Shown piece after piece: positions 7,189 to 23,901 of a DNA stretch of 35,782 nucleotides. Source of the DNA: Desulfamplus magnetovallimortis. Lineage in GTDB: Bacteria > Desulfobacterota > Desulfobacteria > Desulfobacterales > Desulfobacteraceae. The stretch spans positions 71,372-107,153 of the forward strand of contig NZ_LT828559.1 in assembly GCF_900170035.1 (NCBI RefSeq), in the 5' to 3' direction. The position numbers and the translations under genes were made by a program. The notes under the pieces are model-generated. The model did not search any database. It was not told the origin of the DNA and saw only the letters and a program-made list of their open reading frames with translations. The stretch's first letter is position 1, and every line of letters begins with the position of its first letter.

Positions 7189-7293
7189 GGCATGCTTCAT
7201 TCACCTCTTTACATTTTCAGAAAGACAACCCCATTTTTAAGGGAGTATCATCTTCAAAATGTAAAGTACTTTCGAGGTCATATGAAGGATGCC
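7189..7293 (+). mobile_element. Family C repeat, copy 2
   Basis: A 105-bp copy with ends GGCATGCTTCATTCACCT and TCATATGAAGGATGCC. Inner arms CTTTACATTTT and AAAATGTAAAG are complementary, so the whole unit can fold into a long hairpin. Confidence 0.65.
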
Positions 7294-13487: not shown

Positions 13488-13518
13488 TTGACAAAGTAGG
13501 ATAGAGTCTTTAAATAAT
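13488..13518 (+). promoter_or_regulatory. Candidate sigma-70 promoter of the hydrogenase cluster
   Basis: TTGACA at 13488-13493 is a perfect -35 box; AATAAT at 13513-13518 (5/6) could be the -10, although the 19-nt spacing is long. It is about 150 bp upstream of the maturation protease start. Confidence 0.4.
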
Positions 13519-13523
13519 TTTTA

Positions 13524-13654
13524 TTTTGCACAAATTGCATAATATTTTTTTGCACAACACACATGGTATTTTGCATATTTGCATGGAGTCCACATTGTAG
13601 TTGGCACAATACCGATGTGTTTTGCAGGCCCCTCTTACTGAACCATTGCATAAC
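13524..13654 (+). promoter_or_regulatory. Array of TTGCAYAA-like boxes upstream of the hydrogenase cluster
   Basis: TTTTGCACAA (13524), ATTGCATAA (13534), TTTTGCACAA (13548), TTTTGCATA (13569), TTTGCATG (13578), TTGGCACAA (13601) and ATTGCATAA (13646) all lie between the candidate promoter and the first gene, in the same orientation. This density suggests a multi-site operator. The binding protein is unknown. Confidence 0.35.
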
Positions 13655-13669
13655 ACAATTGAGAACATA

Positions 13670-14197
13670 ATGTATCAAAAATTTTTTACCCAAAAGCGTC
13701 TTGTATTTGGCTGTGGTAACCCGTTTTTTGGAGATGACGGCTTTGGCCCTGCTGTAATTGAGTATCTTGAACAATTTCACGAAATTCCCGAAGATACTGA
13801 AGTGCTTGATGCCGGCACATCCATAAGGGATATCCTTTTTGACATTCTTCTTTCCGAAGAGAAACCAGAACAGATCATTGTAATTGATGCCGTTGACAGG
13901 GAAGGAATGTCTCCTGGGGAGATATCTGAAATTGATGTTAACGATATCCCCATGAATAAAACATCAGATTTTTCCCTGCATCAGTTTCCCACCACCAACA
14001 TGCTGAAAGAGTTAAGTGATGCCACAGGCATTGATGTGCGGGTCTTTGTGGTGCAGACAGATCAATTGCCAGAGCAGGTGTCGCCTGGCCTGACACAGGC
14101 GGTTCAGGATGCTGTGCCAAGACTTTGCTTTAAACTAATTGAACTCCTGAAAAAGCCTGTTGATGCAGCCTTTGAAAAAGAGGAACAATTTGTTTAA
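13670..14197 (+). CDS. Hydrogenase maturation protease (HycI/HyaD/FrhD family)
   Basis: The 175-residue protein belongs to the M52 family that removes the C-terminal extension of [NiFe] hydrogenase large subunits after nickel insertion. Visible motifs are the N-terminal FGCGNPFFGDDGFG, the central DAVD and the SLHQFPTT histidine segment; the nickel-sensing acidic and histidine residues are therefore present. The start was set at 13670 (MYQKFF) rather than the in-frame ATG at 13601, because the upstream part has no family similarity. It is the first gene of the hydrogenase cluster, 38 bp before hdrA. Its likely substrate is MvhA encoded at 20590-22029, which has the expected removable tail. 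Confidence 0.88.
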   Translation: MYQKFFTQKRLVFGCGNPFFGDDGFGPAVIEYLEQFHEIPEDTEVLDAGTSIRDILFDILLSEEKPEQIIVIDAVDREGMSPGEISEIDVNDIPMNKTSDFSLHQFPTTNMLKELSDATGIDVRVFVVQTDQLPEQVSPGLTQAVQDAVPRLCFKLIELLKKPVDAAFEKEEQFV

Positions 14198-14201
14198 ACG
14201 C

Positions 14202-14231
14202 AACTCCGTAACTGATTCCATTAAAGGAGTT
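14202..14231 (+). promoter_or_regulatory. Hairpin that can mask the hdrA ribosome site
   Basis: AACTCC (14202-14207) is the exact complement of GGAGTT (14226-14231). The second arm contains part of the AAGGAG ribosome site that decides the 14236 start. The stem is only 6 bp, so an effect on translation is a suggestion. Confidence 0.3.
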
Positions 14232-14235
14232 CAAC

Positions 14236-17200
14236 ATGTTAATTTTTAATGTCGGTGCTTTGGCAAACCAATTAGGTGTTCACAGAAACACTGTCACAAA
14301 CTGGATCAAGTCAGGAAAACTTGCTGCCGAAACCACTGCTGCCAAAAAATATGCCATTGAAAAGGATATATTTCGTCGATTTTGCATTGGGGAGCACATC
14401 CCGGATGAGATTGTAGAAAAAATCCTTACTGGTGCCTTTGAAAAACCAACGGCACCCAAACCCCGAAACCTTCACAACATTCCACAGAGAGAACCGATTA
14501 TGAGAAAGAAAAACTTAGGATCCGTCATGGTGGTCGGCGGCGGGATTGCCGGTATTCAGTCCACACTTGACCTTGCGGACTCCGGATATTATGTCTATCT
14601 TATTGAAAAATCCCCGGGCATTGGCGGTGCCATGGCCCAACTGGACAAAACCTTTCCAACAAACGACTGTGCCATGTGAATTATCGCACCCAAACTGGTA
14701 GAGTGCGGTCGGCACTTAAACGTTGAGTTACTTACCCTTTCCGAAGTTCAGTCTGTATCTGGTCAGGCAGGAAGTTTTTCCGTAAAAGTCAAAAAGAAAC
14801 CCCGCTTCATTGACATGGAAAAATGTATTGCCTGTGGCCTTTGTGCTGAAAAATGCCCCAAAAAGGTGGATGATGAGTTCAATATGGGCATCAGCAAGAG
14901 AAAGGCTGTCTATATTAAATATGGTCAGGCTGTTCCCCTTAAATATGCAATTGACCCTGAACAGTGCATCTACCTTACCCGAGGAAAATGCAGAGCATGC
15001 GAAAAATTCTGCCCCACCGGTGCCATCAATTTTGAAGATAAAGAGGAAATTGTCACAATTGATGTTGGCTCTGTGATCCTTGCACCTGGTTTTAAGCCCT
15101 TTGATCCATCTGTCTATGATGTATATGGTTATGGCAAAATAGAGGATGTTGTCACAAGCCTTGATTATGAGCGTCTTTTGTCTGCAAGCGGTCCCAATAT
15201 GGGGCATCTTATCCGCCCGTCTGACCATCAGGAACCCAAAAAAATTGCCTGGCTACAGTGTGTTGGCTCCAGGAACAATAATCGCTGCGACAACACATAC
15301 TGCTCCAGTGTCTGCTGCATGTATGCCATCAAGCAGGCTCTTGTAACAGCAGAGCATTTAAGTGGTGACGATATCTCCCAGACTATCTTTTTTATGGATT
15401 TAAGAAGCCACGGAAAAGATTTTGAAGGTTATTACGAAAATGCCAAAACCAAAGGCGTCAACTTTGTCAGGGCAAGGCCACATACCATTGATCCAGGGCC
15501 TGAAGGTGTTGGTGTATCCATCCGTTTTACCACCGAGACAGGGGAGACCTTTGAAGAGCTTTTTGACATGGCTGTTCTCTCCATCGGCCTTGAGGCTTCC
15601 GGCGACAGCATGGCCCTTGCCGACACTTTTGGCATTGAGCTTGATATGCACCATTTTGCAAAAACCGGCAGTTTTGAGCCGGTGAACAGCAGTCGTACCG
15701 GCGTTTTTGTCACAGGAGCATTTCAGGCTCCCAAGGCGATTCCACGCTCAGTTGCCCAGGCATCTGCAGCAGCTTCTTCGGCTGCAACCCTTCTTGCCGA
15801 CGCAAGGGGCAGTATGACCCGTAACAAAGAGTGGCCGGAACCAAGGGATATCCGTGGCGAAACTCCTGCAATTGGTGTGTTTGTCTGCTCCTGCGGCATC
15901 AATATCTCAAATGTTGTGGATGTGGAAGCTGTTGCAAAATATGCTGCAACCCTTCCCAATGTTGTTCATGTTGAGAATAACCTTTTTACCTGCTCGGCTG
16001 ACACCCAGGAGTTGATAGCAGAAAAGATAAAAGAGCATGGCCTTAACCGTATCGTTATTGCCGCATGTACCCCAAGAACCCATGAACCGCTTTTCCAGGA
16101 GACGTTAAAGGATGCAAAGCTCAATGGATTCATGGTGGAGATGGCAAATATCCGAAACCAGAATGCCTGGGTTCACCAAAGGGAACCTGAAAAAGCAACC
16201 CAAAAGGCAAAGGATCAGGTGCGAATGGCTGTGGCCAAGATCACGTACAGCTCTCCTTTGAACCAGGAAACCCTTAATGTTACTCCAAAGGCACTGGTGG
16301 TTGGCGGCGGAATCGCAGGAATGACAAGCGCACTTGCCATTGCAGATCAGGGATTTGAAACCCTTATCATGGAAAAAAACAATACCCTTGGCGGAAATGC
16401 CCTTGCTTTAAAGATGAGCTTCAGGGGTGAAATTGTGAAACCCATGCTGGATGGTCTTATTGAAAAAGTCTCCACACATCCTAAAATCAGCGTGGCAACA
16501 GAGGCAACCTTAAAATATGTATCTGGATCTGTGGGAAACTTTAAAAGTGAGATAAGCATTAACGGCACTTTAAAGCAGATTCAGTATGGTGTTGCAGTTA
16601 TGGCCATTGGAGGAAGAGAGGGCGTTCCCACTGAATACCATTATGGAGAAGACAGAAGGGTTATGACCCATCTGGAGTTTGATGCACAGGTGATGGAAAG
16701 CATAGTCGCCGAGTCAGAAAAGGCAGCAGCTCCCGATAAAGGTAAAATGGAGAATCCACAGAGTGTTGTATTTATACAGTGTGTGGGATCTCGGGAGCCG
16801 GAACGCCCATATTGCAGCAGGATATGCTGTGTACATTCTGTGAAAACTGCAATCCAGATAAAGGAAAAATCTCCTGAAACCCAGGTTTTTATACTCAATC
16901 GGGATATCCGCACCTATGGTGTGTGGGAAGATTACTACCAAAAAGCCAGGGAGCTTGGGGTAATTTTTATCCGCTATGAAGTGGAGAGAAAACCTGTTGT
17001 TAATCTGGAAGAGAATCATATTGCAGTAAAAGTGACTGATCCAATTCTTCAGTTACCCCTTGATATAGAAGCTGATTATCTTGTGCTTGCATCAGGAGTT
17101 ATTCCAAATCAAAGCCGTGACCTTGTGGAGGTTTTTAAGTGCAGTGCCAGTGCTGAAGGTTTTCTTAATGAAGCCCATCCAAAGCTTCGCCCTGTTGATA

Positions 17201-17670
17201 TGTCGGTTGATGGCCTTTTTGTTGCAGGAATGTGCAACTACCCAAAACCCATTGATGAAGCAATTGAACAGGCAAAAGCTGCTGCCTCCAGGGCTTGCGT
17301 GGTTCTCTCCAAAGAGACCATGAAATTAGATGCCGTTAAGTCATTTGTAACAGACAAATGCGATGGCTGTGCCCTTTGTGTTGATGTTTGTCCCTACAAT
17401 GCCATTTCCCTTGAAACAGTTGACTCTTCCCTTGATCTGGAAAGTGCTTCTTATGCTGAAACAGAAAAATGTAAAGATTCGGTAGTGGCAACAACTTTGA
17501 ATGGCGAATCCCATAATTTGAATGGTTCATTCCATAGGAGAATAGTGACAGACTCTGCCCTTTGTAAAGGATGTGGTATCTGCTTTGCCACCTGTCCCAA
17601 GGAGGGTATCATGGTGCATGGCTTTACCATGAATGAACTAAAGGCACAGGTAACGGCTGCAATTGCATAA
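14236..17670 (+). CDS. hdrA: Selenocysteine-containing HdrA-like flavoprotein with N-terminal helix-turn-helix segment
   Basis: One frame of 1144 residues, read through an in-frame TGA (14677-14679) as Sec148, sitting in [21 protein letters not shown] where related HdrA proteins carry Cys or Sec. Residues 1-55 resemble an excisionase/MerR-type helix-turn-helix ([20 protein letters not shown]). From residue 97: first FAD/NAD motif (GGGIAG 101-106), Sec148, ferredoxin clusters (Cys197/200/203/207 and about 239-256), and the HdrA cysteine motif LQCVGSR. From about 546 a second HdrA-like module begins (IGVFVCSCG) with GGGIAG at 690-695, but it lacks the matching Cys/Sec loop. C-terminal clusters use Cys1042/1045/1048/1052 and Cys1110/1113/1116/1120. 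HdrA proteins bifurcate electrons on FAD in the cytoplasm. AAGGAG supports the start at 14236; an internal ATG at 14500 would give HdrA without the extra segment. Confidence 0.9.
14677..14717 (+). promoter_or_regulatory. Sec TGA and bSECIS-like hairpin of hdrA
   Basis: The TGA at 14677-14679 is followed after 22 nt by a stem AGTGC (14702-14706), loop GGTCG, GCACT (14712-14716), extendable by one G-T pair. The loop begins 27 nt after the TGA and contains GGTC, as in the E. coli fdhF SECIS. Distance and loop fit known bacterial elements. Confidence 0.65.
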
Positions 17671-17712
17671 ACAACTTATAATAGATTAGTTGCTCATAAT
17701 CAAAAGTGTAAA

Positions 17713-17880
17713 CTATAGCTTTCCAGAAAAATATTTTATTTTTTTGTAAACGGGCATGATTGATTACGTATCAATCACCCCCAAATATAAAAATGATAGT
17801 CATTTTCACGGTAAAAAATTAATCCAGATAACAGATAGTTAGACTTTTTCATTATCAATTTAATTATCTGGAATACTATA
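17713..17880 (+). mobile_element. Family D repeat interrupted by a family B copy
   Basis: Outer parts 17713-17750 and 17816-17880 together make a 103-bp D unit, with ends CTATAGCTTTCCAGAAAA and TTATCTGGAATACTATA. Its reverse complement occurs uninterrupted at 25573-25675. It sits in the 266-bp gap between hdrA and mvhD and is followed by a family C-like end (GATATGAAAGATGCC, to 17905). Confidence 0.75.
17751..17815 (-). mobile_element. Family B 65-bp insertion
   Basis: The unit starts CGGGCATGATTGATTACG and ends TTTTCACGGTAAA. GTAAA occurs at both edges (17746-17750 and 17811-17815). The uninterrupted D copy at 25573-25675 shows a single GTAAA at the same position, so this is a precise 65-bp addition (or a precise loss there). 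Confidence 0.8.
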
Positions 17881-17936
17881 CTTTTGAGTTGATATGAAAG
17901 ATGCCCAATTTTTTATTATTTAAGGAAATAAATAGC

Positions 17937-18494
17937 ATGAACGATCAATTTGAACCGATCATTGTAGGATTTCTCTGCAACTGGTGTGCCTATGCAGGTG
18001 GTGATCTTGCCGGTGTTTCCCGACTTCAATATCCCCCAAACATGCGTGCAGTAAGGGTTATGTGCTCAGGCATGGTACATCCCAATCTTGTGGCTGATGC
18101 CTTTCATCAGGGTGCTGACGGTGTTATTGTCATGGGCTGACATCTTGGAGAATGTCATTACCTGGATGGTAATTATAAAGCTGAAGCAAGGTCTCAAGTC
18201 ATAACAATGGTTCTTGAGGAGAGCGGCATTGACCCGGAAAGATATGCCCTTGAGTGGGTCTCATCAGCAGAAGCTCCAAGATTTGCAGAAGTTGTAACCC
18301 GTTTTACAGAACAGATTAGGGCATTGGGTCCACATGCACCGAAACCTTGTCATAATGAATCACCGGAAATGGATTCAGGAGCCATGAAAACATTGCATCA
18401 ATCAACGGAAACACCTGATCAATCAACGGAAACAGCTGATCAATCAACGGAAACACCTGATCAATTACTGGAAACCGCAAAGGAGGCTCTATGA
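17937..18494 (+). CDS. mvhD: Selenocysteine-containing MvhD-like hydrogenase iron-sulfur subunit
   Basis: MvhD carries a [2Fe-2S] cluster and links the Mvh hydrogenase to HdrA. The 185-residue frame runs through a TGA at 18138-18140 (Sec68). Motifs match the family: FLCNWCAYAGGDLAGVSR, RVMCSGMVHP and GADGVIVMGUHLGECHY, where the usual residue at the U position is Cys. The ATG at 17937 follows AAGGAA. After residue about 140 the protein departs from family length and has a proline/threonine/glutamine-rich tail with three repeats of DQSTETP or a close variant. The stop overlaps the start of the next gene (ATGA), and that gene's ribosome site is inside this tail. The 266-bp gap to hdrA contains repeats, so a second promoter may serve this part of the cluster. 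Confidence 0.9.
18138..18173 (+). promoter_or_regulatory. Sec TGA and bSECIS-like hairpin of mvhD
   Basis: ATTACC (18157-18162), loop TGGAT, GGTAAT (18168-18173) form a perfect 6-bp stem. The loop starts 22 nt after the TGA, the same offset and nearly the same loop as in mvhA. Confidence 0.65.
18400..18462 (+). repeat. Three tandem 21-bp repeats within mvhD
   Basis: Units at 18400-18420, 18421-18441 and 18442-18462 differ by only one base (CACCTG or CAGCTG); a degenerate fourth follows. The unit starts AATCAACGGAAACA. The length is a multiple of three, so copy-number change keeps the frame. Confidence 0.9.
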
Positions 18495-19615
18495 AAACCT
18501 TTTTTAACCTTGTGCAGGATGTCCAGAAGGTGGGATTGTGTCATCGTTGCGGTGGTTGCGTTACCTTCTGTACAGCCATCAATTATGGTGCCCTTAAAAT
18601 TGATGATGATGGAAAACCTGTCTATGCTGATATGGAAAAGTGCATTGAATGCGGTCTCTGTTACTCCATTTGCCCTGAAATAGACGACCTTGAAGAGGAG
18701 ACAAAACTCCAGGCAGCCTGGAAACAGCCCATTGGAAAGGTTATTGAAACCACAGTTTTGAGGGCAACAGATCCTGTTGTACGGCAAAAAGCCACAGATG
18801 GCGGGGTTGTGACAGCACTTCTGCTGCATCTATTTGACAGACATCGCATAGATGGCGCAATTGTTACAAAAGCTGTGGGTAAATTCCAGCGTCGTCCATT
18901 TCTTGCCACTACACGTCAGGAGATACTTGATGGAGCCGGCCTCTTTTTTGATACATCACACGGCATGAAGAGTTTCAGTGATGAATATATGACTTTTTCT
19001 TCCATTGAGGAGTTTGACCCCATGGTGAAAAAAAAGCTCAACCGGGTTGCACTTGTGGGAACTCCCTGTCAGATAAAATCTGTAAGAAAGATGCAGGTTA
19101 TGAATCTTGTCCCTTCAGACGCAATTAAGTTCTGTTTTGGCCTTTACTGCACCGGCAATTTTACCTTTGGTGATAAGGAGCGCCAGATGATAGCTCGGGT
19201 TGGGAATTTTTCCTGGGATGATACAGTAAAAATAAATCTGAAAGACAAACTTTACATCACATTAAGTTCAGGTGAGGAGAAATCCATTTCCCTTGAGGAG
19301 CTTGAGAGCATCAAACGGTTTGCCTGCCGATATTGCAGTGACTACACAGCAGAATTTGCAGATATCTCGTTTGGAGGTCTAGGCGCAGCAAAGGGGTGGA
19401 CATCTGTTTTAATCCGTACACCTCTTGGCCGTGCAGTTCTGGCAGATGCCAGAAGCGCCATGGCTCTGGAGCAGTTCAACATGGAAAATGATCCCAACTA
19501 TTCCGGAAAAGCTCTTCAGGAGGCAAGAAGTGCCTCATCTGCAAAACGGACAGCAGCACGTCATTATAGAAGGGAGCTTAACAAACAAAAACCCATGGGC
19601 CTTGCAAGGAGATAA
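18491..19615 (+). CDS. FrhB-like iron-sulfur flavoprotein (F420 hydrogenase beta-subunit family)
   Basis: The 374-residue protein has two N-terminal ferredoxin motifs (CHRCGGCVTFC, residues about 18-28, and CIECGLCYSIC, about 54-64) and the FrhB/FdhB N and C domains. Signature segments are ATDGGVVTALLLHL, GTPCQIKSVRKM, CFGLYCTGNF and CRYCSDYTAEFADISFGGLG. Family members bind FAD and a [4Fe-4S] cluster and exchange electrons with F420, ferredoxin or other partners. F420 use here is not shown. Its place between mvhD and mvhG suggests it is a subunit of the same cytoplasmic complex, perhaps the electron outlet that HdrBC provides in methanogens. Start is fixed by AAAGGAGG and the 4-base ATGA overlap with mvhD. 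Confidence 0.88.
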   Translation: MKTFFNLVQDVQKVGLCHRCGGCVTFCTAINYGALKIDDDGKPVYADMEKCIECGLCYSICPEIDDLEEETKLQAAWKQPIGKVIETTVLRATDPVVRQKATDGGVVTALLLHLFDRHRIDGAIVTKAVGKFQRRPFLATTRQEILDGAGLFFDTSHGMKSFSDEYMTFSSIEEFDPMVKKKLNRVALVGTPCQIKSVRKMQVMNLVPSDAIKFCFGLYCTGNFTFGDKERQMIARVGNFSWDDTVKINLKDKLYITLSSGEEKSISLEELESIKRFACRYCSDYTAEFADISFGGLGAAKGWTSVLIRTPLGRAVLADARSAMALEQFNMENDPNYSGKALQEARSASSAKRTAARHYRRELNKQKPMGLARR

Positions 19616-19622
19616 GATCACA

Positions 19623-20585
19623 ATGAAAGTAAATGTAGCAAGTGAATGGCTCAACTCCTGCTCTGGATGCGAAATCTCCATAATTGATATGGGAGAACGT
19701 TTGCTTGATGTTCTTCAGGTTGCTGATATCGTTCATCTTCCAGCACTTATGGACAGCAAGTACTTTGGGCAGATGGGTGACAAAAGTCATCTGAGCATCC
19801 CAAAAGCAGATGTTGGAATTATTAGCGGCAGTATAAGGAACCAGGAGCATGTGGAAGTGGCCGAAGAGATGCGGAAAAAGTGTAATATTATTATTGCACT
19901 TGGAACCTGTGCCACACATGGGGGGATTCCGTCGCTTTCTAACAGCTATGACAATGAAGAGACCCTGGATCGATATTACAGCACAGAGAGTACTGATGTT
20001 GAGAATAATAAGAACGACACTGGCAAAGGTTATCCGGCAAAGGATATCCCAAAACTTCTTGATGCCTGTTATGCTCTTGATGAAAAGATAAAGGTGGATA
20101 TCTATCTTCCAGGTTGCCCCCCTCATCCTGATCACATATTCCATGCACTGACAGCACTTGTCTCCGGAAAAGAGCTTAAACTTCCGGAAAAGTCGGTTTG
20201 CGACACATGTCCAACAATTCGGAAGGGCAAAGGTGACCTTAAAAAGCTCAGAAGATTTCTGGAAGCACCATTATATGGAGCTGCCGGTGAGTCCCTTGAT
20301 AAAATGCGCTGTCTTCTGGAGCAGGGTTTTCTCTGTATGGGGCCTGTGACCCGCGGAGGTTGTGGCGGAGATGCAAAGGATCCTCGGTGCATTTCAGCAA
20401 GGGTGCCCTGTCGAGGTTGCTACGGTCCTGTTCGTCACGAGGGAAATCAGCGCCTTGATATGCTCAATGCCCTGGTTTCCAACGGCATTGATATAAACTC
20501 CCTGCCTGAAAGTACCTCTCTTCTTCGTTTTTCAGGAGGACATGGTATGCTTCGTCCCAAATTCAAGAAAAAAAAGGAGATTTAA
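19623..20585 (+). CDS. mvhG: Mvh-type hydrogenase small subunit
   Basis: The 320-residue protein is the iron-sulfur small subunit of a group 3 cytoplasmic [NiFe] hydrogenase. The proximal cluster motif NSCSGCEISIIDMGE is at residues about 10-25, followed by GSIRNQEHVE, ALGTCATHGGIP and LPGCPPHPDHI, all typical of the 20-kDa oxidoreductase subunit fold. A C-terminal cysteine-rich region (CDTCPTIRKGK, MGPVTRGGCGGDAKDPRC, PCRGCYGPV) supplies further clusters. There is no Tat signal, which agrees with a cytoplasmic enzyme. AAGGAG precedes the ATG at 19623; the open frame extends upstream into the previous gene but without family similarity. The stop is 4 bases before the mvhA start. Confidence 0.92.
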   Translation: MKVNVASEWLNSCSGCEISIIDMGERLLDVLQVADIVHLPALMDSKYFGQMGDKSHLSIPKADVGIISGSIRNQEHVEVAEEMRKKCNIIIALGTCATHGGIPSLSNSYDNEETLDRYYSTESTDVENNKNDTGKGYPAKDIPKLLDACYALDEKIKVDIYLPGCPPHPDHIFHALTALVSGKELKLPEKSVCDTCPTIRKGKGDLKKLRRFLEAPLYGAAGESLDKMRCLLEQGFLCMGPVTRGGCGGDAKDPRCISARVPCRGCYGPVRHEGNQRLDMLNALVSNGIDINSLPESTSLLRFSGGHGMLRPKFKKKKEI

Positions 20586-20589
20586 ATCC

Positions 20590-22029
20590 ATGGGAAAAAT
20601 GATCAATATACAACCCATTACCCGAATTGAGGGACATGCATCCATCGGCATACAACTGGATGATGACGGCAATGTGGCTGATGCTCGGGTAAATGTTATG
20701 TCCCTGCGGGGATTTGAAAAATTTGTGGAAGGAAAACCTGCCGAAGAGCTTCCAAGAATCGTCAACCGTATCTGCGGAATTTGCCCCTGGATGCACCATC
20801 TGGCATCCAACAAGGCTGTGGATGGATGTTTTGGAGTGGTTCCAACTCCAGCAGGTCACAAACTCCGTGAGCTTATGCAGACCATCTCCCATGCCGAAGA
20901 CAAACTTTTGCACTTTTTCTTTCTGGCAGCCGCAGACTTTGTCATAGGTCCTGACAGTGATTATGCAGTAAGAAATGTGATAGGAATTGTTAAGGCAAAT
21001 CCGGAGCTTGCATCAAAAGTTGTAAAGATGCGTCAGATGGCCAAAATGATTCTTGACAAATTTTCCAAAAAGACAATCCATCCGGTTGCAGGTGTTCCAG
21101 GAGGATTTGCAAAGCCCCTTCTTGAGGAGGAGAGAGTCGATATTCTGGACAAGATGCGTCAGATCCTTGATTTTGCAATGTTTACAATGGATTTTGCAAA
21201 AAAAGAGGTCTTCCCCAAATATCTTGAAACCATACAGTCACTTGGGGTTATCAAGACCGGATTTATAGGAACTGTTGATGATGAGGGGGCTCTTAATCTC
21301 TATGATGGCAAGTTGCGTCTTATGAAACCTGATATGACATATGAGGAGTTTGCCCCTGCAAACTATACAGACTATCTTGCAGAAAAGATAATTGATCACT
21401 CATATGGAAAATTTCCCTATGCAAAATCATGGAACGAAGGTTTTTCCATGGATCTTGAAAACCCCAAGGGAATCTATCGTGCCAACACCCTTGCCAGAAT
21501 AAATGTGGCCGACAAAATGGCAACCCCAAAGGCACAGGCAGAGCTTGAGGAGTTTCGTTCTCTTTTTGGCCGTCCTGCACAGGCCACACTGCTTTACCAT
21601 TATGCCCGCCTGATAGAAGAGGTTTATGCATGTGAACGAGCAATTGAAATCCTGGAAGACCCTGTAATTACAGATCCAGATGTCAGAGCCAAAGTAGAGC
21701 CAAAAGCCGGCAGAGGCGTAGGATGTGTAGAAGCTCCAAGAGGAACCTTGATCCACGACTACAGCACAGATGAAAATGGCCTTATCACCCGGGCAAATCT
21801 TATTGTTGGTACAACCCACAATCTTGGGCCAATCAACATGAGTGTGAATCAGGCTGCCAGATCTTTGATAAAAAACGGAACCTATGATGAGGGAACTCTC
21901 AACAAGATTGAGATGGCGGTACGCGCCTATGACCCCTGAATTTCCTGTGCAACGCATCGCCTGGACGGCGTGCCTGTGGTAAGTGTATCCATAAAGGATA
22001 GTAAAGGACAAACTATCTGGAATAATTAA
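20590..22029 (+). CDS. mvhA: Selenocysteine-containing Mvh-type [NiFeSe] hydrogenase large subunit
   Basis: The large subunit holds the Ni-Fe active site. The first metal-binding motif is RICGICPWMHH (Cys62 and Cys65). The second, normally DPCxxCxxH, reads DPUISCATH with Sec450 encoded by TGA at 21937-21939 and Cys453. Reading through adds 29 residues, ending at TAA 22027-22029. Cleavage after His456 would remove a 23-residue tail (RLDGVPVV...WNN), as expected for a substrate of the maturation protease encoded at 13670. Without readthrough the protein would lack half of its nickel ligands. Total length is 479 residues, normal for MvhA. AAGGAG precedes the ATG. It is the last gene of the cluster and is followed by a strong terminator. 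Confidence 0.93.
21937..21973 (+). promoter_or_regulatory. Sec TGA and bSECIS-like hairpin of mvhA
   Basis: GCA (21954-21956), bulged T (21957), CGCC (21958-21961), loop TGGAC, GGCG (21967-21970) and TGC (21971-21973). The loop starts 22 nt after the TGA. The bulged U below a short GC stem resembles the bulged U of the E. coli element. Confidence 0.7.
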
Positions 22030-22100: not shown

Positions 22101-22238
22101 CTCAAAGTTGACACCTATGATCTTGTAAGCCTTGTCAACACTGTCTGAATCAGGATTCCCAAGTATAAAAAAGATAGTCATTTTCACGGTAAAGATGGTA
22201 GAAATGCAAACTGATTTTGAGTTGATATGAAAGATGCC
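22101..22238 (+). repeat. Chimeric repeat: pieces of families A, B and C end to end
   Basis: Bases 22101-22163 are the first 63 bases of a family A copy (CTCAAAGTTGACACC...), cut at GATTCCCAAG. They continue as the end of a B copy (AGATAGTCATTTTCACGGTA, to about 22196) and a C end (GTTGATATGAAAGATGCC, to 22238). TTGAGTGTACCC just before (22081-22092) is a family E end. With the operator below, this accounts for the 22030-22327 gap. Confidence 0.6.
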
Positions 22239-22327: not shown

Positions 22328-22522
22328 ATGATTGTCTTTGTTGTGATGAGATTTGATCCTATGCAGTGTGGTGCATGTGGAAACGGGAATCTTGATAAAA
22401 TTTTTGTGCAAAAGGAAGATGCCGAGCTTTATATCAAAAATACCAGGTGCAGAAGAGGGGTAAGCTGGCAGATTGAAGAGCGTTCTGTGGAAGTCCATTA
22501 TGATGAAAGTCTGGTGCAATAG
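22328..22522 (+). CDS. Small cysteine-containing protein of unknown function
   Basis: This 64-residue protein is not recognised. It begins with a hydrophobic strand (MIVFVVMRFDP), has a CxxC-like motif in QCGACGNGN (Cys14 and Cys17), a third cysteine at about 41, and an acidic C-terminus. It could bind a metal or cluster. GGAGGG stands before the ATG, which supports translation. A perfect palindrome 27-40 bp upstream of the start resembles those upstream of the TRAP and molybdoenzyme genes, so it may be controlled with them. The hydrogenase terminator separates it from mvhA. Confidence 0.65.
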   Translation: MIVFVVMRFDPMQCGACGNGNLDKIFVQKEDAELYIKNTRCRRGVSWQIEERSVEVHYDESLVQ

Positions 22523-22575: not shown

Positions 22576-22683
22576 GGTATCCTTCATTTCCCAGCTTACA
22601 CTTTCTGGAATAACATACCTTATCTTTCGGGCATCTCCATAAAAAAAAGTGTAAAGTACTTTTGAGGTTATATGAAGGATGCC
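22576..22683 (+). mobile_element. Family C repeat upstream of the stress protein gene
   Basis: A 108-bp copy bounded by GGTATCCTTCATTTC and TTATATGAAGGATGCC, with inner TTACACTTT and AAAGTGTAAA arms. It ends 64 bp before the stress protein start. Confidence 0.65.
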
Positions 22684-23256: not shown

Positions 23257-23901
23257 TCAGGATTTTTTAAGAGTAAAATCACTCCCTTTATATACACGTA
23301 CAGGATTCCCACGTTCCAGTTCATTATGGTAACTCCAGCGTTCTTTCTGGAGCTTCAGTTTCACGCCTTCCTTATCCTGTTTTATTTTTTCATAAAGTCT
23401 GCTTAATGCTAATTTTCTGTTAAGATGCTGAGATCTCTCCTCCCTGGCAACAGCAACTACTCCTGTTGGTATATGTGTTACCCGAATAGCAGATTCTGTT
23501 TTATTGACATGCTGTCCGCCTGGTCCTGAAGATTTCATAGATTCAACTTTTATTTCACCAGTTTTTATATGGCTCTCCTCGGGAGGATTCAGGGAATTTA
23601 CTCCTGCAAACCAGTTCTTTCTCTTATGGTCTGGACGGAACATACTTTTTCCAATCCATTGTATTGTACCTTCCCAGGTGGAGATAAATGTGTGGATATC
23701 TTCACCTTCTACAGCAACTAAAGCTGACTTAAAAATATCGGGTGCGGTAGATGGAATTGTTTGCAGAATATGTGCTTTATAGCCCTTTGATAATGCTTCA
23801 TTTACTATCTGTTTTACTATTTGAGCGGCAACCCAGCAACACTCATCAGGTCCACGTCCGGATGTTATCTGTAACCAGCAAATCATATCCCACTCCGTCA
23901 T
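23257..23901 (-). CDS. prfH: Peptide chain release factor homologue PrfH
   Basis: The 214-residue protein is a short class I release-factor relative. The GGQ catalytic motif is in SSGPGGQHVNKTESAIRVTH, and the domain is preceded by a short N-terminal region with the PrfH signature LQITSGRGPDECCWVAAQIV instead of the codon-recognition domain of RF1/RF2. PrfH is known as the partner of the RNA ligase RtcB2 in a damage-repair module, where it releases peptides from damaged ribosomes. No rtcB gene adjoins it here: upstream is a DUF4143 ATPase gene and downstream a convergent stress protein gene. GAGAGGA precedes the ATG. Confidence 0.9.
   Translation of the reverse strand: MTEWDMICWLQITSGRGPDECCWVAAQIVKQIVNEALSKGYKAHILQTIPSTAPDIFKSALVAVEGEDIHTFISTWEGTIQWIGKSMFRPDHKRKNWFAGVNSLNPPEESHIKTGEIKVESMKSSGPGGQHVNKTESAIRVTHIPTGVVAVAREERSQHLNRKLALSRLYEKIKQDKEGVKLKLQKERWSYHNELERGNPVRVYKGSDFTLKKS

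Follow-up and report, generated by a model that had tools for sequence, protein, structure and literature searches.

A predicted winged helix-turn-helix domain fused to HdrA and nine-base-pair direct repeats at a selenocysteine-type Hdr/hydrogenase locus of Desulfamplus magnetovallimortis

Introduction

What kind of enzyme, and what kind of gene control, is encoded by a hydrogenase cluster in which three reading frames each run through a TGA codon and the first Hdr gene begins with a predicted DNA-binding domain? The question arises from a 35,782-nt stretch of the 6.68-Mb genome of Desulfamplus magnetovallimortis (contig NZ_LT828559.1), here called the window, in whose positions all coordinates are given and which holds the cluster hycI, hdrA, mvhD, an frhB-like gene, mvhG and mvhA. 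Selenocysteine (Sec) forms of HdrA, MvhD and MvhA are, as an earlier note on this DNA stated, already known from deltaproteobacteria (PMC1794560, PMC2702500; papers given by PMC number are cited from the accessible part of their text). An hdrA-frhD-frhG-frhA operon of Deltaproteobacteria with Sec HdrA, FrhD and FrhA was described in 2006, together with a Sec GlpC (PMC1794560), clustering of Sec HdrA1 with Sec MvhA2DG and HysAB in 2009 (PMC2702500), and a 2026 review lists these Sec families and the operon (PMC13188914). Absent from the earlier note are a winged helix-turn-helix (HTH) domain fused to HdrA and a pair of 9-bp direct repeats upstream of the operon. Judging from sequence comparison, the locus probably encodes an Hdr/[NiFeSe]-hydrogenase complex that depends on Sec, the first of its Hdr subunits probably serving also as a regulator of its own operon and, in loci where hysBA is adjacent, of hysBA too.

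Results

A predicted winged HTH domain at the N-terminus of HdrA

The earlier note had placed the start of hdrA at about 14500. The frame is open from an ATG at 14236 behind a good ribosome-binding site (AAAGGAG), hence HdrA is fused at its N-terminus to an HTH domain, in a single gene of 1144 codons with one TGA. The first 66 residues are predicted to form a winged HTH, with an AlphaFold2 (AF2) pLDDT (predicted local distance difference test) of 95 from 35 sequences. Scanned alone, the domain scores 27.9 bits against HTH_17 (cut-off 27); its nearest solved folds by Foldseek are RacA, BldC and Xis, and its topology and Foldseek ranks, the latter with weak E-values, would fit a MerR-like winged HTH of the BldC type, which lacks the dimer and effector domains of MerR. 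Nine HTH residues, including V-H-R-N-T and N-W of the recognition helix, are invariant in 35 sequences with two fusion partners. No description of an HTH-HdrA fusion was found in our literature search, which covered few subscription journals.

Within the family, the HTH was detected in 17 of 86 genomes at 19 places, 18 of which run into HdrA and one of which ends at a contig edge. A phylum-wide sample had it in 39 of 395 genomes, the loci read being some HTH-HdrA and many HTH-GlpC fusions (30 of the 39 were fetched; the motif search came up empty for 9 of them, L147 is broken, and L154 encodes a response regulator). A scan of contigs yielded 36 loci, 35 from Desulfobacterota plus L195 from Shimia, which has no Hdr match. 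Wherever hycI comes first, the Hdr gene that follows most closely bears the HTH, the gene orders being hycI, HTH-HdrA, mvhD, (glpC), frhB, mvhG, mvhA or hycI, HTH-GlpC, hdrA, mvhD, mvhG, mvhA. Clusters with an HTH-less hdrA contain frhB in 1 of 14 cases (L075); L076 and L103 have frhB in genomes with no detected HTH. As a separate observation, L196-L208 and L214 carry the HTH on a GlpC/HdrD-like subunit that is itself a Sec protein (LLLPEUGH or LLLPLUGH) in many loci. At L205 (6483-9910), HTH-GlpC seems broken, hdrA and mvhD are missing and mvhGA retained, with no upstream repeats.

Could the HTH instead be a small regulator in its own right, translated apart from HdrA, with HdrA beginning at an internal ATG? 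The window does have such a codon at 14500, the corresponding ATG is kept in L073, and the HTH of L175 is a free-standing frame ahead of hdrA. Yet the HTH-to-HdrA frame is open in 33 of the 35 Desulfobacterota loci (the exceptions are the unfused L175 and L194, which meets a contig end), and among the first five relatives, all with an open fusion frame, four have lost the start codon at the beginning of HdrA. Separate translation is, in our estimate, highly improbable. The free-standing frame of L175 (5998-6260) has the size of BldC, lies between hycI and hdrA, and is perhaps a pre-fusion state.

Direct repeats with a period of nine

Tandem copies of GCACAAnnn spotted upstream of HTH loci gave rise to the motif counted here, a strict pair GCAYAn4GCAYA with a period of 9. 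On the forward strand it occurs in 27 of 54 upstream regions, against a mean of 0.1 and a maximum of 2 in 300 shuffles, and other periods from 5 to 25 reach at most 6 regions (period 18). Over both strands of 340 bp, the pair was present at 19 of 24 Sec-type and 1 of 13 Cys-type HTH-HdrA loci, 13 of 14 HTH-GlpC loci and 0 of 18 clusters without HTH; after grouping of similar regions the respective counts were 12/17, 1/8, 13/14 and 0/13, and background tiles, both strands, contained it in 27 of 1696 cases. With regions of 520 bp, or reaching up to a divergent hysB, 40 of the 54 HTH loci have the pair versus none of the 18 clusters without HTH. When L088, L089, L092 and L098, four clusters whose genomes have an HTH at another place, are taken out, the count is 0 of 14 (Fisher test, 3e-7, kinship ignored); the 18 also include L107, with a region of only 60 bp. 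Dropped before counting were L195 (from Shimia and without an Hdr match), L209 (anchored wrongly, at a contig edge) and L210 and L213, which duplicate L190 and L185. L162 and L194 were counted in the totals and kept outside the Sec/Cys split; the pattern had missed the motif of L162, a gene that was also read as L130 and has Cys there.

The divergent hysB promoters were scanned with the motif fixed beforehand. The pair is present in all 8 that belong to HTH loci, some 36-66 bp ahead of where hysB is estimated to start, versus 0 of 3 without HTH, and nine is the sole period common to the 8, other periods being found in at most 3. Within the genus, the window and genome G003 have both HTH and repeats and G007 has neither. 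The window pair, unique there on both strands, lies 40 nt past a TTGACA and 142 bp upstream of hycI, and another 13 loci have a TTGAC at a distance of 30-59 nt ahead of the pair. A longer pattern has 2 exact sites in the host genome, the second near unrelated genes; with one mismatch allowed it has 12, versus 2 for a reversed control. An operator tied to Sec-type fusions only, as the 340-bp counts might suggest, was dropped on the wider evidence, because the pair is also found at the divergent hysB of Cys-type loci and in the Cys-type HTH-GlpC loci L196, L201, L202 and L208.

We infer from these sequence patterns a feedback control of the hydrogenase genes by HTH-HdrA. At the promoter of the operon, the HTH would bind the 9-bp direct repeats GCAYAnnnn; in relatives it would bind those at the divergent hysBA promoter as well. 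The manner would resemble that of BldC, each protomer of which binds one 9-bp direct repeat (PMC5859096). The enzyme subunit could in this way report a state, be it assembly, flavin or iron-sulfur redox, or hydrogenase supply, to hydrogenase transcription. Because the repeats lie close to the presumed transcription start, HTH-HdrA would most likely be a repressor.

HTH folds may become protein-binding modules. The cluster might accordingly be an ordinary Sec-rich Hdr/hydrogenase cluster, its HTH a relic or docking domain without a DNA role and its repeats the sites of some other regulator. Such a reading would accommodate the 14 of 54 HTH loci in which the strict pair is missing (L162, L163, L167, L169, L170, L174-L176, L179, L182, L189, L190, L205 and L212), as well as L076, which has a hysB repeat in a genome (G054) where the HTH was not found. 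It is harder to reconcile with a recognition helix that is invariant across two fusion partners, with repeats that track the HTH and not the cluster, and with a period of nine, the same as that of BldC (PMC5859096); we consider it unlikely. The missing pairs and L076 nevertheless count against a DNA-binding HTH-HdrA, and so do several further points. In the full-length chain, HTH_17 scores 21.9, below the cut-off of 27, and the Foldseek E-values are 0.03-0.15, none being below 0.001. The motif was derived from the HTH loci themselves, so that the controls and the hysB sites are the only separate tests, and the relatives are not independent, which makes the Fisher values too strong. Across the family, 10 of 86 genomes together contain 11 sites of the exact pattern, versus 3 for the reversed control; 3 of the 11 are placed at HTH loci (the window, G019 and G032), gene content was read at L226 (unrelated genes), and the D. 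autotrophicum-like G057, which has no HTH, holds one exact site. With these points taken into account, we still favour regulation by HTH-HdrA, at the strength given in the Introduction.

Three TGA codons on cysteine positions

As the earlier note had pointed out, the frames of HdrA, MvhD and MvhA each run past a single TGA (Table 1). The TGAs fall on redox or metal-ligand cysteine positions, the aligned residue being Cys in solved HdrA (5odc_A) and MvhD (8rvu_F). The anticipated failure of standard gene calling is also seen: translation table 11 splits hdrA into 14236-14679 and 14815-17670, reduces mvhD to a stub of 67 residues followed by 18207-18494, and stops mvhA at 21939, before the C-terminal metal ligands. 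Because the standard code thus yields a 147-residue "HTH protein" and a headless HdrA, the fusion gene is easily overlooked in Sec-type loci. The genes selA, selB, selC and selD, for which that note recommended looking, are all in the host genome, where SelD carries a TGA of its own and tRNA-Sec scores 76.6 bits; the Sec machinery is complete.

At the Sec site, the genes of the fetched clusters have either TGA (17 HdrA, 21 MvhD and 30 MvhA) or Cys (6, 8 and 1, respectively). Matches below 44% identity are excluded here and from the hairpin counts, which leaves out L104 and L105, two Cys paralogues of MvhA. Among the matches listed, at least 28 full-length MvhA orthologues (62-100% identity; 25 other genomes and the window's own) have one TGA apiece, and because of this a sequencing error is very unlikely. 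A SECIS-like (selenocysteine insertion sequence) hairpin 3' of the TGA is found in 67 of 68 Sec genes (HdrA 17/17, MvhD 21/21, MvhA 29/30) and 0 of 15 Cys genes (0/6, 0/8 and 0/1), with patterns drawn up after inspection of the sequences. Single-sequence folds of the three candidates in the window were no better than shuffles (z −0.65, −1.38 and +0.34), and an Rfam scan of the window gave no match. That SelB would read UGA at the hairpin just 3' of each codon is strongly supported.

Nothing was found in favour of the TGAs being sequencing errors or marks of decaying genes; this reading was rejected, since the TGA is shared at the same place across many genomes with the frame kept downstream, and the confinement of hairpins to Sec genes and the full Sec machinery leave it practically no chance. 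HdrA, MvhD and MvhA are thus, very probably, built with selenocysteine, and neither of the findings that the earlier note named as fatal to this claim, missing Sec machinery or miscalled TGC/TGT codons, was borne out. The complex as a whole would be selenium-dependent, although some relatives pair a Cys HdrA or MvhD with a Sec MvhA. Other HdrA-like stretches exist in the host genome (best, 51% identity); at G000:C6:78254-82564, a second HdrA-like long frame has a TGA within its N-terminal match and is possibly a further Sec HdrA.

The hydrogenase complex and its surroundings

MvhA has the motifs of methyl-viologen-type hydrogenases (RICGIC and DPUISC) and matches PF00374, and MvhD and MvhG match PF02662 and PF01058. 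Against the NCBIfam models, VhuA scores 458.6 bits, VhuD 123.8 and VhuG 212.5 (below their cut-offs of 800, 215 and 450), and HdrA scores 955.9 against NF040770 HdrA2 (cut-off 1100, again higher), with strong matches to HdrA of the PDB across two segments. The Vhu/Hdr complexes of methanogens (PDB 5odc, 8rvu and 9sfi) contain homologous HdrA, MvhD and MvhA; they are archaeal, their closest MvhA chain spans residues 3-424 only, and no HTH aligned. HdrB and HdrC are not in the cluster and GlpC has no match in the window; because HdrBC is lacking there, we do not name the complex a heterodisulfide reductase. The locus would encode a cytoplasmic [NiFeSe] hydrogenase/flavin electron-transfer complex of HdrA-MvhD-FrhB-MvhGA type, in which H2 may feed electrons by way of MvhA, MvhG and MvhD into the flavins of HdrA, with FrhB next in line. 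The earlier note's description of the cluster had left out hycI and the frhB-like gene.

Table 1. Features of the locus, in window coordinates
Feature	Position	Strand	Evidence
TTGACA, possible -35 of hycI-hdrA promoter	13488..13493	+	sequence; weak, absent from promoter-scan list
Proposed operator GCACAAATTGCATA, 2 repeats, period 9	13528..13541	+	sole strict pair in window; conserved in HTH loci
hycI, hydrogenase maturation protease	13670..14197	+	PF01750, 82.4 bits
HTH-HdrA fusion gene of 1144 codons with a single in-frame TGA	14236..17670	+	open frame, Shine-Dalgarno AAAGGAG; NCBIfam and PDB matches for HdrA
Winged HTH domain, 66 aa (predicted)	14236..14433	+	HTH_17 27.9 bits alone; AF2 pLDDT 95
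Probable Sec codon of HdrA (NDCAMU)	14677..14679	+	frame, homologue comparison
SECIS-like hairpin of hdrA	14701..14717	+	kept in Sec relatives
mvhD, one in-frame TGA	17937..18494	+	PF02662, 178 bits
Probable Sec codon of MvhD (VMGUHLGECHY)	18138..18140	+	frame, homologue comparison
SECIS-like hairpin of mvhD	18157..18173	+	kept in Sec relatives
frhB-like iron-sulfur flavoprotein gene	18491..19615	+	PF04432, PF04422
mvhG, hydrogenase small subunit	19623..20585	+	PF01058; start picked by eye
mvhA, [NiFeSe] hydrogenase large subunit	20599..22029	+	PF00374; alternative start 20590
Probable Sec codon of MvhA (DPUISCATH), nickel ligand position	21937..21939	+	frame, homologue comparison
Core of SECIS-like hairpin of mvhA	21959..21969	+	kept in Sec relatives

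A dispersed repeat with the core GAGTTGATATGAAAGATGCC (window copies at 7274-7293, 17886-17905, 22219-22238 and 22664-22683) was considered as a regulatory element upstream of mvhD and rejected, because its 172 genome places at ≤3 mismatches, versus 0 for the reversed control, make it look like an interspersed intergenic repeat; it is less abundant in some members of the genus and occurs in few other family genomes. The C-terminus of MvhD is encoded by near-perfect tandem repeats (18398-18465) of DQSTETP-like units. Downstream of mvhA lie a 64-aa frame (22328-22522) that has a CGACG motif but matches no Pfam family, then a universal stress protein gene, and, on the minus strand, a frame (23257-23901) whose GGQ motif resembles that of peptide release factors, of which it may encode a homologue.

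Discussion

The hdrA UGA might itself act as a built-in selenium switch on the hydrogenase genes. With selenium, ribosomes would yield the HTH-HdrA enzyme; without it, translation would end at codon 148, and the resulting chain of 147 residues, the HTH with a stub, would be free to occupy the direct repeats and turn off the selenium-dependent hydrogenase genes. This we hold to be decidedly unlikely. Cys-type fusions that keep the repeats show the HTH to be independent of the UGA, and the switch would therefore be at most an added layer in Sec-type loci, on top of the feedback control by HTH-HdrA proposed above.

PutA, in its enzyme and its DNA-binding fold, is unrelated to HTH-HdrA. What the two would share is the control of own genes by a redox flavoenzyme, proposed here and known for PutA, which represses its own operon (PMC6978683). 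HTH-HdrA would in that case belong to the trigger enzymes, in which a single chain serves both catalysis and the control of transcription. In Methanosarcina, hdrBCA is regulated by HdrR (PMC11218639). BldC, of the MerR-like family, has a winged HTH that the predicted fold of the window's domain would resemble, and 9-bp direct repeats go with both (PMC5859096), but BldC is a free 68-residue protein, whereas the HTH of the window is the N-terminus of an enzyme subunit, and the repeat is AATTnnnnC for BldC versus GCAYAnnnn in HTH loci. Among hydrogenase loci, the operon described for Syntrophobacter fumaroxidans and Desulfotalea psychrophila has the same three Sec families, order and small hydrogenase subunit (PMC1794560); unlike it, the window has no glpC, has an frhB-like gene and bears an HTH on HdrA, a domain that the accessible part of that paper does not mention for the operon. 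The hdrA1-mvhDGA2 cluster beside hysAB in Desulfobacterium autotrophicum HRM2 (PMC2702500) shares Sec HdrA, MvhD and MvhA and hycI (L085), but lacks the HTH, frhB and the upstream repeats, whereas the window lacks adjacent hysBA.

The fusion is open to experiment, being carried by cultured strains such as Desulfocicer vacuolatum DSM 3385 and Desulfatibacillum alkenivorans DSM 16219. If the HTH does bind the repeats, an electron-transfer subunit of an Hdr/hydrogenase complex would also act as transcription factor of the operon that encodes it, and the periplasmic [NiFeSe] hydrogenase of relatives would come under the control of the HTH-bearing subunit as well. Hydrogen metabolism would then be tied to gene control with no separate sensor.

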